NCBI RefSeq assembly: GCF_030817415.1
Contig: NZ_JAUSZI010000002.1
Coordinates: 1,240,001-1,304,000, forward strand
DNA from: Streptomyces umbrinus
Lineage (GTDB): Bacteria; Actinomycetota; Actinomycetes; Streptomycetales; Streptomycetaceae
Length of the DNA: 64,000 nucleotides
Reading direction: 5' to 3'
The position numbers and the translations under genes were made by a program. The notes below the pieces were generated by a model. The model was not told the origin of the DNA, made no database searches, and worked only from the letters and a program-made list of their open reading frames with translations. Positions 54,938 to 59,051 of the stretch are shown here, piece by piece; the first letter of the stretch is position 1, and each line of letters begins with the position of its first letter.

Positions 54938-56614
54938 ATGGCACAGGGCACGGACGCAGCACGGACCGTCATCCTGACCGTGGACGACGACCCTGGAGTC
55001 TCCCGTGCCGTGGCCCGTGACCTGCGACGACGCTATGGCGAGGGATACCGGATCGTGCGCGCCGAGTCCGGCGAGAGCGCCCTGGAGGCCCTGCGGGAGC
55101 TGAAGCTGCGCGGTGATCTCGTCGCGGTGATCCTGGCGGACTACCGGATGCCCCAGATGAACGGCATCGAGTTCCTGGAGCAGGCCCTGGACGTGTACCC
55201 GGGCGCGCGGCGGGTGCTGCTGACCGCCTACGCGGACACGAACGCGGCCATCGACGCGATCAACGTCGTCGACCTCGACCACTATCTGCTCAAGCCCTGG
55301 GACCCGCCCGAGGAGAAGCTCTATCCCGTCCTGGACGACCTCCTGGACGCCTGGCGGACCTCCGACCACCGGGCGGTTCCGATCACGAAGGTCGTCGGGC
55401 ACCGCTGGTCGGCGCGGTCGTCGGACGTACGGGAGTTCCTGGCGCGCAACCAGGTGCCGTACCGCTGGTACTCCTCGGACGAGCCAGAGGGCAAGCGGCT
55501 GCTGGCCTGCGCGGATCAGGACGGCGAGCGGCTGCCGCTCGTGATCACCGCGGACGGGGCCGTGCTGGTCGAGCCCGACGACCCGGAGCTGGCCGCCCAG
55601 GTGGGGCTGGCCACGACTCCGGCCGAGGACTTCTACGACCTCATCGTCATCGGTGGCGGACCCGCCGGGCTCGGCTCGGCGGTGTACGGGGCCTCGGAAG
55701 GGCTGCGGACCGTGCTCGTGGAGCGTTCCGCGACCGGCGGACAGGCCGGCCAGAGCTCGCGGATCGAGAACTACCTGGGCTTCCCGGACGGTGTGTCCGG
55801 GGCGCAGCTCACCGACCGGGCGCGGCGTCAGGCGTCGAAGTTCGGCGCCGAGATCCTCACCGCGCGCGAGGTGACCGGTCTGGAGGTCAACGGCTCCTCG
55901 CGGACCGTGCGGTTCTCGGACGGTTCCGCGATCGCCGCGCACTGCGTGATCCTGGCGACCGGCGTGTCGTACCGGCAGTTGCAGGCGCCGGGCACGGAGG
56001 GCCTGACCGGGTGCGGGGTGTACTACGGATCGGCACTGACCGAGGCGGCCTCGTGCCAGGGCCACGACGTGTACATCGTGGGCGGCGCGAACTCCGCCGG
56101 GCAGGCCGCGATGTACCTGGCCAGGGGCGCGAAGTCGGTCACCCTGCTGGTGCGCGGCTCTTCCCTGTCCGCGTCGATGTCGCACTACCTGATCGGGCAG
56201 ATCACGGACGCGCCCAACATCTCCGTGCGTACGGGGACGGTCGTCGAGGCGGCGCACGGCTCCGACCACCTGGAGCAGCTGACGCTGCGCGACATCGAGA
56301 GCGGGCACACCGAACTCGTCGACGCGCAGTGGATGTTCGTGTTCATCGGCGCGGCCCCGCTCACCGACTGGCTGGACGGCACCGTGCTCAGGGACGAACG
56401 CGGGTTCATTGTCGCCGGACCCGACCTGGCCGTCGGCGGACAGCCGCCGCCCGACTGGGAGTTGGACCGGGCGCCGTACCACCTGGAGACCAATGTGCCC
56501 GGGGTGTTCGTGGCGGGTGACGCCCGGGCCGAGTCCGCGAAACGTGTCGCCTCCGCCGTCGGAGAGGGAGCCATGGCCGTGATGCTCGTCCACAGGTATC
56601 TGGAGCAGTCGTGA
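54938..56614 (+). CDS. receiver-domain / thioredoxin-reductase-like FAD flavoprotein fusion
   Basis: This 558-residue protein starts at ATG 54938. Residues 8-140 are an intact receiver (TVDDDPG, phosphoacceptor Asp68 in LADYRMPQMNG, Lys119 in YLLKPW). Residues 148-225 resemble a glutaredoxin-like domain (RWSARSSDVREFLARNQVPY) without CxxC. The rest is a thioredoxin-reductase-like flavoprotein: FAD motif GGGPAG (239-244), NADPH motif GGANSA (382-387) and a final FVAGDARAESAKRV. The redox CxxC of true thioredoxin reductases is missing, though Cys359 and Cys373 flank its place. It probably links phosphorylation to NADPH/flavin redox state. The next gene overlaps as GTGA. Confidence 0.92.
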   Translation: MAQGTDAARTVILTVDDDPGVSRAVARDLRRRYGEGYRIVRAESGESALEALRELKLRGDLVAVILADYRMPQMNGIEFLEQALDVYPGARRVLLTAYADTNAAIDAINVVDLDHYLLKPWDPPEEKLYPVLDDLLDAWRTSDHRAVPITKVVGHRWSARSSDVREFLARNQVPYRWYSSDEPEGKRLLACADQDGERLPLVITADGAVLVEPDDPELAAQVGLATTPAEDFYDLIVIGGGPAGLGSAVYGASEGLRTVLVERSATGGQAGQSSRIENYLGFPDGVSGAQLTDRARRQASKFGAEILTAREVTGLEVNGSSRTVRFSDGSAIAAHCVILATGVSYRQLQAPGTEGLTGCGVYYGSALTEAASCQGHDVYIVGGANSAGQAAMYLARGAKSVTLLVRGSSLSASMSHYLIGQITDAPNISVRTGTVVEAAHGSDHLEQLTLRDIESGHTELVDAQWMFVFIGAAPLTDWLDGTVLRDERGFIVAGPDLAVGGQPPPDWELDRAPYHLETNVPGVFVAGDARAESAKRVASAVGEGAMAVMLVHRYLEQS

Positions 56615-58059
56615 GCGGGCAGCCGATGCCGTGCGACGCGGCGGAACTCAGCACCCTGTTCCTGTTCGAGAAGCTGGACCCGGAACAGCTCGGGCGGCTG
56701 TGCAGCGAAGGCCGCGTCGAGAAGTTCGAGCCCGGCTATGTGTACGAGGAGGGCGAGCCGGCCACCTGCTTCTTCGTCCTCCTCGAAGGCACGCTCGTGA
56801 TGTCGCGGCGGGTCGGCGAGGACGACGTCGAGATCAGCCGCACCTCCCAGCGCGGGGTGTACGCGGGGGCCATGCAGGCCTATCTGGCCGTCCCGGACGA
56901 CGCGCGCTACAAGGGCTCCCTGCGGGTCACCGTGCCGTCGCGGTTCTTCATCCTGCCCGCCGAGACGTTCGCCGCGGTCCTGCGGGAGTGGTTCCCGATG
57001 GCCGTTCATCTGCTGGAAGGGCTGTTCTTCGGCAGCCAGAACACCCAGCGGACCATCGGGCAGCGCGAGCGGCTCCTGGCGCTCGGCTCGCTGTCCGCCG
57101 GGCTGACCCACGAGCTCAACAACCCGGCCGCGGCGGCCGTACGGGCCACGTCCGCGCTGCGGGACCGGGTGGCCGGGATGCGGCACAAACTCGGCATGAT
57201 CGCGGCAGGCCCGTACGCGCGCGCCGCCCTGGAGACGCTCGTCGAGATCCAGGAGCGCACCGCCGAACAGGTCGCCAAGGCCACGCCCTTGAGTCCGCTC
57301 GAAGCCTCCGACCGGGAGGACGCGCTGGCGGACTGGTTCGACGACCACGACATCGCGGGCGGCTGGCAGCTCGCGCCGACGTTCGTCCAGGCGGGCCTCG
57401 ACACCGACTGGCTCGACCAGGTCGCGGCGGCCGTGGACGAGGGGACGCTCGAAGGCGCGATCAGGTGGCTCAACTACACGGTGGAGACCGAGTTGTTGAT
57501 GAACGAGATCGAGGACTCCACGACCCGGGTCTCGAATCTCGTGAACGCGGCCAAGCAGTACTCCCAGCTCGACCGGGCGCCCTACCAGGTCGCCGATGTG
57601 CACGAACTGCTGGACAGCACGCTGATGATGCTCGCCGGGAAGATCGGCTCCGGCATCAGGATCGTCAAGGAGTACGACCGCGAACTGCCCAGGATCCCCG
57701 CCTACCCCGGCGAGTTGAACCAGGTGTGGACGAACCTCATCGACAACGCCGCCTCCGCGATGGGCGGCGAGGGCGTGCTGACCGTCCGCACCGCGCTCGA
57801 ACGGGACCAGTTGCTCGTCGAGTTCCGCGACACCGGGCCCGGGGTGCCCGAGGAGATCCGCGGCAGGATCTTCGACCCGTTCTTCACGACGAAGCCGGTC
57901 GGTGAGGGCACCGGACTCGGGCTCGACATCTCCTGGCGCATCGTCGTGAACAAGCACCACGGGCATCTGGAGGTCCACTCCGAGCCCGGCGACACCCGCT
58001 TCCAGGTGTTCCTCCCGCTCACCGCCGCCGAACCCGACGCCCCTCAGGAGGCCTCATGA
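56611..58059 (+). CDS. cyclic nucleotide-binding-domain sensor histidine kinase
   Basis: This 482-residue soluble kinase starts at GTG 56611, overlapping the flavoprotein stop. The N-terminal 145 residues are a CRP-type cNMP-binding barrel (LSTLFLFEKLDPEQLGRLCS, YVYEEGEPATCFFVLLEGTL). The kinase core begins with LGSLSAGLTHELNNPAAAAV (phospho-His167), followed by a long helical insert (about 200-310), then NQVWTNLIDNAASAMGGEG, RDTGPGVPEEI, FFTTKPVGEGTGLGLDIS. HELNNPA-type kinases commonly sense intracellular signals. It is probably the kinase for the receiver of the preceding gene. The UBP zinc-finger gene overlaps its end as ATGA. Confidence 0.93.
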   Translation: MSGQPMPCDAAELSTLFLFEKLDPEQLGRLCSEGRVEKFEPGYVYEEGEPATCFFVLLEGTLVMSRRVGEDDVEISRTSQRGVYAGAMQAYLAVPDDARYKGSLRVTVPSRFFILPAETFAAVLREWFPMAVHLLEGLFFGSQNTQRTIGQRERLLALGSLSAGLTHELNNPAAAAVRATSALRDRVAGMRHKLGMIAAGPYARAALETLVEIQERTAEQVAKATPLSPLEASDREDALADWFDDHDIAGGWQLAPTFVQAGLDTDWLDQVAAAVDEGTLEGAIRWLNYTVETELLMNEIEDSTTRVSNLVNAAKQYSQLDRAPYQVADVHELLDSTLMMLAGKIGSGIRIVKEYDRELPRIPAYPGELNQVWTNLIDNAASAMGGEGVLTVRTALERDQLLVEFRDTGPGVPEEIRGRIFDPFFTTKPVGEGTGLGLDISWRIVVNKHHGHLEVHSEPGDTRFQVFLPLTAAEPDAPQEAS

Positions 58060-58403
58060 CCACGGACGGAATCGACCCGGGGGTCCCGCCGAGCGGTGCG
58101 GGCTGCGTCGAATGCGACGAGGTGGGTGGCTGGTGGTTCCATCTGCGCCGATGCGCCCAGTGCGGACATGTGGGCTGCTGCGACGACTCCCCCGCCAAGC
58201 ACGCCACGGCCCATCACCAGACCACCGGCCATCCGATCATCCGCAGCTTCGAGCCGGGCGAGGCCTGGTTCTGGAACTTCAAGACGTCCGAGCTGTACGA
58301 GTCCGGTCCGGAGCTCGCTCCGCCGCTCGCCCACCCGGCGGACCAGCCCGCGCCCGGGCCCGCGGGACGGGTTCCGGCGAACTGGGCGGAGACCCTGCGC
58401 TGA
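58056..58403 (+). CDS. UBP-type zinc-finger protein
   Basis: This 115-residue protein has a zf-UBP domain at about 15-80: CVECDEVGGWWFHLRRCAQC then GHVGCCDDSPAKHATAHHQT and TGHPIIRSFEPGEAWFW. Cys17, 20, 33, 36 and 41, with His49, 53 and 59 or their neighbours, can hold two to three zinc ions. In eukaryotes the fold binds the free C-terminus of ubiquitin; in bacteria the partner is unknown. Translation is coupled to the kinase gene (ATGA overlap), so it probably belongs to the same signalling complex. A Pro-rich tail ends the protein. Confidence 0.92.
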   Translation: MTTDGIDPGVPPSGAGCVECDEVGGWWFHLRRCAQCGHVGCCDDSPAKHATAHHQTTGHPIIRSFEPGEAWFWNFKTSELYESGPELAPPLAHPADQPAPGPAGRVPANWAETLR

Positions 58404-58405
58404 AG

Positions 58406-58840
58406 TTGATCTCCGTCATCGGAAGCAGCCCCGGAGTCGGCAAGTCCACGCTGTGCCGGGCCCTGGCCGACTGGCCGGCCGGGCTCGGCGCCTCGATCGA
58501 CCACTTCGAGGAGGCTGACATCCTCGCCCGGCCCGCCTTCCGGCCCGTTGCCGAGGAGTTCGCCGGTGGGGCCGGTGCCGTCCGGCCCGAGACGCTCGTC
58601 GAGTGCACTCGTGCCTACGTCGACGAGTCGCTCGCGGCGGGCAGGGACTGCCTGGTGACGGACGCGCTGCTGCCGTTCGTCCCGTCGCTCGTGGCATGGG
58701 GCCACGACGAGAGCACCCTCGTCCAGGTCATGAAGGACCTGACCGGGGCCATGGAACCCGCCGACGTCACCGTGGTGTACGTCCACGACGACCCGGCGAC
58801 CGCACTGCGACGGGCCGTCGAGCGTGAGGGGGCCGACTGA
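58406..58840 (+). CDS. P-loop ATPase/kinase-like protein, N-terminal part, probably frameshifted
   Basis: From TTG 58406, 2 bp after the zinc-finger stop, the frame encodes 144 residues. It opens with a P-loop (LISVIGSSPGVGKSTLCRAL), then DHFEEADILARPAF and VTVVYVHDDPATALRRAVER like nucleotide-kinase-type proteins. It stops early at 58840. Dropping one G from the GGGGG run at 58828-58832 joins it to the overlapping frame 58824-59051, which supplies a plausible C-terminus of about 70 residues. So the gene is either recently broken or the run is misread. It is the last gene of the redox-signalling operon. Confidence 0.75.
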   Translation: MISVIGSSPGVGKSTLCRALADWPAGLGASIDHFEEADILARPAFRPVAEEFAGGAGAVRPETLVECTRAYVDESLAAGRDCLVTDALLPFVPSLVAWGHDESTLVQVMKDLTGAMEPADVTVVYVHDDPATALRRAVEREGAD

Positions 58841-59051
58841 GCTCGCCTCTTCTCCCGGCACCAGGTCGGTCCACGATCTCCCGTCCGCCGCCGCTCATCT
58901 CCGCTTCGAGGCGGATCTGACCCGTCGGCTGCTGGCACTGACCCCGTGGCAGGTACTCACCGTGGACGCGGGGACACTCGACGCGGCGGAGTCCTTCGAC
59001 CACACCCGGCGCCGCCTGACCGAACTGCTGAGGCTGCCGACGCGACCGTGA
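58824..59051 (+). pseudogene. out-of-frame C-terminal piece of the P-loop ATPase
   Basis: This frame reads SVHDLPSAAAHLRFEADLTR and LLALTPWQVLTVDAGTLDAA before its stop. Good codon bias and the nucleotide-kinase-like LTVDA segment show that it is the natural continuation of the P-loop protein at 58406. It overlaps that frame by 17 bp and has no ribosome site of its own. Confidence 0.6.

Follow-up and report, generated by a model that had tools for sequence, protein, structure and literature searches.

Can a two-component system act through a flavoprotein? The question is raised by three overlapping genes in a stretch of 64,000 nucleotides from the 12.4 Mb genome of Streptomyces umbrinus (assembly GCF_030817415.1, contig NZ_JAUSZI010000002.1, positions 1,240,001–1,304,000); this whole stretch is called the window, and coordinates refer to it. 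Gene 1 encodes a receiver (REC) domain fused to a degenerate glutaredoxin (Grx)-like and a thioredoxin reductase (TrxR)-like part, gene 2 a histidine kinase (HK) with a cyclic nucleotide-binding (CNB) domain, and gene 3 a zf-UBP zinc-finger protein. Comparative analysis points, with slightly better than even confidence, to an NAD(P)H flavoprotein that is switched by phosphorylation and has a zinc-finger protein as partner.

54938..56614, + strand: gene 1, REC–degenerate glutaredoxin-like–TrxR-like flavoprotein, 558 aa (ATG start at 54938, stop ends at 56614)
56611..58059, + strand: gene 2, CNB-domain histidine kinase, 482 aa (GTG start at 56611, stop ends at 58059)
58056..58403, + strand: gene 3, zf-UBP protein, 115 aa (ATG start at 58056, stop ends at 58403)

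Conservation of the three-gene unit

Genes 1 and 2 overlap by GTGA and genes 2 and 3 by ATGA. An earlier interpretation made from the letters of the DNA (the sequence-only reading) had described an operon of four genes; the overlaps bear this out for genes 1–3, which the gene-neighbourhood survey it proposed finds as a conserved unit in other genomes, whereas gene 4, starting 2 bases past gene 3, is not conserved with them.

In 81 Streptomyces genomes, flavoprotein-family genes occupy 63 places in 45 genomes (E value up to 1e-80), and the kinase occupies 48 places in 41 genomes (E value up to 1e-60). For 40 of the 48 kinase places, a flavoprotein gene is no more than 500 bp away. At the remaining eight, the distance to a second REC flavoprotein type is 22.3–22.7 kb, which implies a conserved island; in one genome (G267, L238–L239) this 22-kb island contains, as judged by eye, STAS-like, glycogen-debranching-like, and MinD-like proteins. 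The zinc finger, which had been proposed as an adaptor, proves to be a recurrent partner, with a zf-UBP gene within 5 kb of at least 55 of the 63 flavoprotein places. Among the zf-UBP matches listed, 56 of the 126 used lie near a flavoprotein gene, and the others are copies elsewhere. Because related genes share ancestry, these linkage counts are not independent, but zf-UBP linkage does change 19 times on a tree of 124 family members.

A wider survey used profiles (hidden Markov models) grown from the window's own domains. It comprised 60 loci from 197 Actinomycetota genomes (of 61 matches outside the window with at least 221 bits) and the best 80 of 170 loci from a scan of 84,980 species genomes, and is hence a sample. 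With the window included, 127 genes passed the cut for the Grx-like and TrxR-like parts: 78 are REC-type, 36 carry a CNB domain instead (CNB-type), and 13 have neither. A CNB kinase lies within 3 kb of at least 50 of the 78 REC-type genes, of none of the 36 CNB-type genes, and of none of the 13 others (contig ends make these counts lower bounds). REC-type genes with a kinase occur in seven phyla (Actinomycetota, Bacteroidota, Cyanobacteriota, Acidobacteriota, Verrucomicrobiota, Gemmatimonadota, and Pseudomonadota), and a CNB fusion and a CNB kinase share a locus in 0 of 36 cases. On the family tree, a single change between CNB-type and REC-type is needed when unassigned genes are left out. Since the kinase stands beside the REC-type only, and the CNB domain is fused to the flavoprotein in the CNB-type, CNB would reach the flavoprotein either in cis or via a phosphorelay in trans. 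By domain architecture, then, the same kind of CNB sensor is predicted to be joined to the same flavoprotein by fusion or by a kinase and receiver. Comparative evidence supports the pairing well, and the kinase and receiver, whose catalytic residues are conserved, are very probably cognate, in agreement with the phosphotransfer that the sequence-only reading envisaged.

Domains and active sites of the flavoprotein

Gene 1 comprises the following features.

54971..55309, + strand: receiver domain, residues 12–124 (Pfam Response_reg, 57.6 bits)
55139-55141, + strand: phospho-acceptor Asp68 of the receiver (invariant in 35/35 aligned REC-type proteins)
55385..55615, + strand: glutaredoxin-like domain, about residues 150–226 (WSARS at the site of the sister clade's WCPDC)
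55631..56602, + strand: TrxR-like FAD/NAD(P)H domain, about residues 232–555 (Pfam Pyr_redox_2, 104 bits)
56021..56044, + strand: site of the TrxR CATC active disulfide, reading YYGSALTE, residues 362–369 (by alignment to solved TrxRs)

The receiver has the residue set of response regulators: in addition to the invariant Asp68, Asp16-18, Thr96, and Lys119 are each present in at least 90% of the 35 proteins, an alignment that includes several close Streptomyces relatives. The Rossmann motifs of the TrxR-like part for flavin adenine dinucleotide (FAD) and NAD(P)H are invariant or nearly so (alignments A1, A2). Searched by itself, the middle domain matches no PDB sequence significantly; the same domain in a sister clade is recognized as Pfam Glutaredoxin in 5/5 proteins. 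These matches confirm the fusion first read from the letters, a receiver with a glutaredoxin-like part and a TrxR-like part without the usual CxxC.

A CxxC at either active site is missing in 119 of 124 family members (the 127 genes minus three that are too short); one of the 119, L153, has a CxxC elsewhere. In the window, the glutaredoxin site reads WSARS in place of CxxC or CxxS (no members but the five of the sister clade have a CxxC at this position), and the redox-active CxxC of low-molecular-mass TrxR is missing at the aligned site of gene 1. The five exceptions are standalone glutaredoxin–TrxR proteins with CxxC in the Grx domain (WCPDC, or WCGDC in one) and CATC in the TrxR part. They come from Chloroflexota and Actinomycetota (L126, L127, L190, L194, L195), and are apparently self-contained NAD(P)H-to-Grx reductases. 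In a tree from a quick search (129 rows, rooted on seven canonical TrxRs, after removal of two rows of the 124 that failed to match the FAD-motif pattern), the five CxxC-bearing members form one clade (Shimodaira–Hasegawa-like approximate likelihood ratio test, SH-aLRT, 97) beside 117 cysteine-less members (SH-aLRT 100). As judged from these alignments, the flavoprotein has lost both CxxC sites, and the standalone sister clade keeps both. Tyr363 is invariant in 35/35 REC-type proteins, and Gly364, Glu369, and Ala370 are present in at least 90%; simple decay of the TrxR site is unlikely because the replacement residues are conserved.

Structure models were made of gene 1 and gene 2 as single proteins. 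The AlphaFold2 model of gene 1 has a mean predicted local distance difference test (pLDDT) of 84.4 and a predicted template-modelling score (pTM) of 0.61. AhpF and TrxR are its best fold matches. AhpF, in which Trx-fold domains are likewise attached to a TrxR core, ranks first with a template-modelling score of 0.45 on the query and a root-mean-square deviation of 16.9; this deviation indicates that its domains are placed differently from those of the gene 1 model. Thus gene 1 has the FAD/NAD(P)H fold in common with low-molecular-mass TrxR and AhpF, but it has no redox-active CxxC in either domain, and has a receiver at its N-terminus.

By architecture, gene 1 belongs to the REC-TrxR ("TrxB") regulators, annotated at NCBI as "fused response regulator/thioredoxin-disulfide reductase", a class already known by name. 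In their available parts, one paper names REC-thioredoxin reductase response regulators (PMC5847659) and another tabulates "TrxB" as an output class (PMC9953108). The claim that a flavoenzyme is an unusual output is true, but such regulators had already been catalogued. The available parts of these accounts do not mention the Grx-like domain, the disulfide loss, the CNB kinase, zf-UBP, or a CNB-fused counterpart. The CNB-fused enzymes (NCBI "cyclic nucleotide-binding domain-containing thioredoxin-disulfide reductase") share gene 1's Grx-like and TrxR-like core and likewise lack CATC, but carry CNB instead of REC, and some of their loci lie in a heat-shock operon with trxA; they have no kinase because CNB replaces REC. 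In the portion available, one report describes ATII-TrxR, a CNB-fused protein that shares 87% identity with one from Cupriavidus metallidurans, as carrying FAD, using both NADPH and NADH, and reducing thioredoxin and 5,5′-dithiobis-(2-nitrobenzoic acid) (DTNB) (PMC6544261). A CNB-TrxR of C. metallidurans (L208) lacks CATC and shares 41% identity with gene 1 over 396 columns; with an offset chosen afterwards, three of the four cysteines named for ATII-TrxR have counterparts in it. From the portion available, ATII-TrxR is a probable CNB-type member; if so, the reported activity must either proceed without CATC or be re-examined.

The kinase, the zinc finger, and the heat-shock operon

Gene 2 has two features of note.

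56650..56985, + strand: CNB domain, about residues 14–125 (cNMP_binding, 30.0 bits, cut-off 27.5; without pocket Glu and Arg)
57109..57111, + strand: phospho-acceptor His167 of HELNNPA (invariant in 27/27 aligned proteins)

The kinase boxes are those of histidine kinases: besides His167, the N, G1, F, and G2 motifs are conserved, and HATPase_c scores 81.4 bits. No transmembrane segment is evident by eye. The AlphaFold2 model (mean pLDDT 86.8, pTM 0.56) has kinase structures as its best fold matches. The description of gene 2 as a CNB domain joined to a HELNNPA kinase thus holds for the motif (residues 167–173) and the CNB fold, but the residues of the cyclic-nucleotide (cNMP) pocket are missing.

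The nearest PDB sequences of the CNB domain are those of DNR (2z69, 3dkw; E value 4e-10), a heme/NO regulator, and the DNR stretch aligned to it has no pocket Arg. A cNMP pocket has approximately the pattern Gly-Glu followed by Arg-Ser/Thr-Ala. One control sequence had already been viewed when this pattern was relaxed to its present form, which matches 2 of 56 CNB domains from kinases, the window's not among them, and 4 of 38 CNB-TrxR domains; a stricter form occurs in 1 of 56 and in none, respectively. In a control, three of six other CNB proteins of the window's genome match (two of six in the stricter form), matches in a 35-residue and a 681-residue frame not being counted. A cyclic nucleotide as the signal of the window's kinase is rejected as a candidate, since the pocket Glu and Arg are missing and the pattern is unmatched. 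Because the window's domain and nearly all kinase CNB domains lack the pattern, such a ligand appears unlikely, and the "internal nucleotide signal" and "cyclic-nucleotide signalling" of the sequence-only reading are not upheld. At two loci (L079, L080), three CNB histidine kinases stand in tandem after one REC-TrxR gene, which suggests several inputs into one flavoprotein.

Gene 3 was correctly recognized as a UBP zinc finger (Pfam zf-UBP, 48.4 bits; cut-off 22.7), with 2ida as best PDB sequence. The zinc-ligand Cys/His pattern CGxxxCCD is present in 33 of 35 bacterial zf-UBP proteins. Gene 3 also matches members of the eukaryotic ZnF-UBP group of USP13, USP5, and HDAC6 (E value 4e-4 for USP13 and 2e-3 for USP5), but differs in its bacterial pattern CGxxxCCD and at the USP5 Arg and Tyr positions that bind the ubiquitin tail: Arg is replaced by His and one Tyr by Gly, and other aromatic residues are partly kept. 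Arg occupies this position in 1 of the 33 pattern-bearing bacterial proteins. The window's genome has at least one further zf-UBP gene distant from the flavoprotein (G000:C2:4300440-4300712). Two Deinococcus plasmids encode KefB-like cation:proton antiporters (Na_H_Exchanger and TrkA_N) with a C-terminal zf-UBP:

L214:4201-6231: Deinococcus antiporter–zf-UBP gene
L215:4183-6216: Deinococcus antiporter–zf-UBP gene

A literature search on the function of bacterial zf-UBP proteins turned up nothing.

In the genomes covered, the CNB-fused form and zf-UBP often lie together with trxA inside a heat-shock operon. Sixteen plasmid regions were examined, one of them without annotation, and four (two from Rhodococcus, one from Nocardia, and one from Streptomyces) have the order J protein-cbpM-clpB-trxA-UBP-CNB-TrxR; trxA is directly upstream of zf-UBP and CNB-TrxR in all four, and dnaK and grpE are in view in three. 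Of 15 loci retrieved from Streptomyces (14 of the flavoprotein places where the match does not cover REC, and one additional locus), nine have the order grpE-dnaJ-cbpM-clpB-UBP-CNB-TrxR, eight of these nine with trxA directly upstream of zf-UBP, and six lack this order. In the wider survey (141 loci), L116 has the whole order and L119 has chaperones and trxA with no zf-UBP match; a single clpB or trxA match is found in five of the other 139 (L162, L198, L201, L205, L207). Neither clpB nor trxA has a match in the window between 47001 and 64000. A search for recurrent neighbours (the 30 largest clusters, by eye) gave generic or taxon-specific families and one four-locus ClpB-like cluster.

Mechanism, alternatives, and the neighbouring gene

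Genes 1–3 would form a two-component switch with the flavoprotein as output. The CNB-fold domain of the soluble kinase would sense a cytosolic signal, probably not a cyclic nucleotide, and phosphate would pass from the kinase to the receiver of gene 1, as the linkage and conserved residues suggest. The phosphorylated receiver may then move against the Grx-like/TrxR-like part and set its NAD(P)H-dependent redox activity or its conformation. The usual electron route from NADPH through FAD and CATC to CxxC is closed because both redox disulfides are gone, and electrons would have to pass from FAD to an external acceptor along a different path. For the CNB-fused form, the co-operonic thioredoxin would be the best acceptor candidate; none is visible for the window's form. 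In both forms, zf-UBP would be a dedicated partner of the flavoprotein, possibly as a docking subunit or a redox-sensitive zinc protein.

Several observations weigh against this scheme. The HisKA match of gene 2 (18.1 bits) is under the Pfam cut-off of 26.9. For 28 of the 78 REC-type genes, the surrounding 3 kb contain no CNB-HK; 26 of these 28 group together as another clade, placed on the tree's CNB side and with a kinase beside none. A zf-UBP gene lies within 6 kb of at least 33 of the 127 sampled genes, many of which are on short contigs; most surveyed Streptomyces have at least one extra zf-UBP gene distant from the flavoprotein, and in several genomes of the Actinomycetota survey (G192, G038, G071, G082) zf-UBP and the flavoprotein are both present but far apart. 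Assays of REC-type members did not turn up in the literature search. With both disulfides lost, reductase activity is less to be expected, contrary to the available portion of the ATII-TrxR report (PMC6544261).

The strongest alternative, which we nevertheless hold to be unlikely, is that the flavoprotein is the sensor: its disulfide-less TrxR-like part would read the redox state of FAD/NAD(P)H and signal via REC or CNB, with the kinase or zf-UBP as output. Consistent with this, both CxxC sites are lost while conservation extends to the motifs for FAD and NAD(P)H and to a new Tyr/Glu motif, and zf-UBP is fused in the two Deinococcus plasmids to an antiporter with TrkA_N, a nicotinamide-nucleotide-linked domain. 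Receivers, however, normally receive and do not send, and the accessible part of PMC6544261 reports substantial NAD(P)H-dependent turnover by a probable CNB-type member.

A phosphorylation-controlled thioredoxin reductase, passing electrons directly or via non-adjacent cysteines, is a still more doubtful reading of gene 1. It would account for the reduction of thioredoxin and DTNB described in that part of PMC6544261, for the trxA gene adjoining the CNB-type in heat-shock operons, and for Cys373, which is present in 80 of 124 members; but Cys373 is missing in the other 44, 119 of the 124 have no CxxC at the TrxR site, and NCBIfam TRX_reduct scores 211.5 bits on gene 1, under its cut-off of 343.45. 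Mere co-inheritance of kinase, flavoprotein, and zf-UBP without mutual action is very improbable: zf-UBP varies in position (upstream or downstream) and strand (sometimes opposite), and its linkage changes 19 times across the tree of 124 members, but genes 1–3 have start–stop overlaps, one open reading frame (L087) encodes CNB-HK-UBP by Pfam, and the kinase pairs with the REC-type only, across seven phyla.

The phosphorylation-switched flavoprotein thus remains the preferred reading, and the whole looks like a widespread, little-studied signalling circuit. A broader proposal, offered tentatively, is that a signalling class arose from Grx-TrxR by removal of the disulfides, with a Tyr/Glu site in place of CATC, a CNB sensor in cis or via a His–Asp phosphorelay, and zf-UBP as standing partner; it might couple NAD(P)H status to proteostasis and stress, acting as a redox sensor or as a flavoenzyme gated by phosphorylation, and the zf-UBP of bacteria might be a reader of a partner's tail or of redox state, unrelated to ubiquitin. 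What is new here, and absent from the literature as far as its examined parts extend, is the loss of the disulfides beside a sister clade that retains them, the placing of CNB in cis or trans, the zf-UBP partnership, and the link to the heat-shock operon; no paper on the kinase–flavoprotein–UBP set was found by title or abstract start in a search that left most subscription papers outside. Many proteins named "thioredoxin-disulfide reductase" or "FAD-dependent oxidoreductase" gain a testable alternative, and cysteine-less members cannot use the disulfide mechanism that their names imply. The cis and trans placing of CNB provides a natural experiment in which a phosphorelay replaces direct domain contact, a concrete partner is indicated for bacterial zf-UBP proteins, and part of the class is linked to the heat-shock disaggregase operon.

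One further frame lies downstream, outside the conserved unit.

58406..58840, + strand: neighbour, P-loop ATPase frame (gene 4) with TTG start and early stop

Gene 4 had been read as a single gene extending to 59051 and as a member of the system, neither of which survives. Its frame stops at 58838-58840, and the remaining homologous, C-terminal part continues in another frame to about 59051. The family is found in 7 of 81 Streptomyces genomes, and 43 of the 45 flavoprotein-bearing genomes have no gene 4 match; in the other two, only the window's copy lies beside the operon. Five of the six other gene 4 genomes have no flavoprotein at an E value of 1e-80, and in the sixth (G207) gene 4 and the flavoprotein are on different contigs. 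Gene 4 is rejected as a part of the system, being beside the flavoprotein operon only in the window's own genome. Five printed relatives (of six looked at) are open across the part that is broken in the window and hold a short stretch that is missing there; gene 4 is possibly a decaying neighbour.

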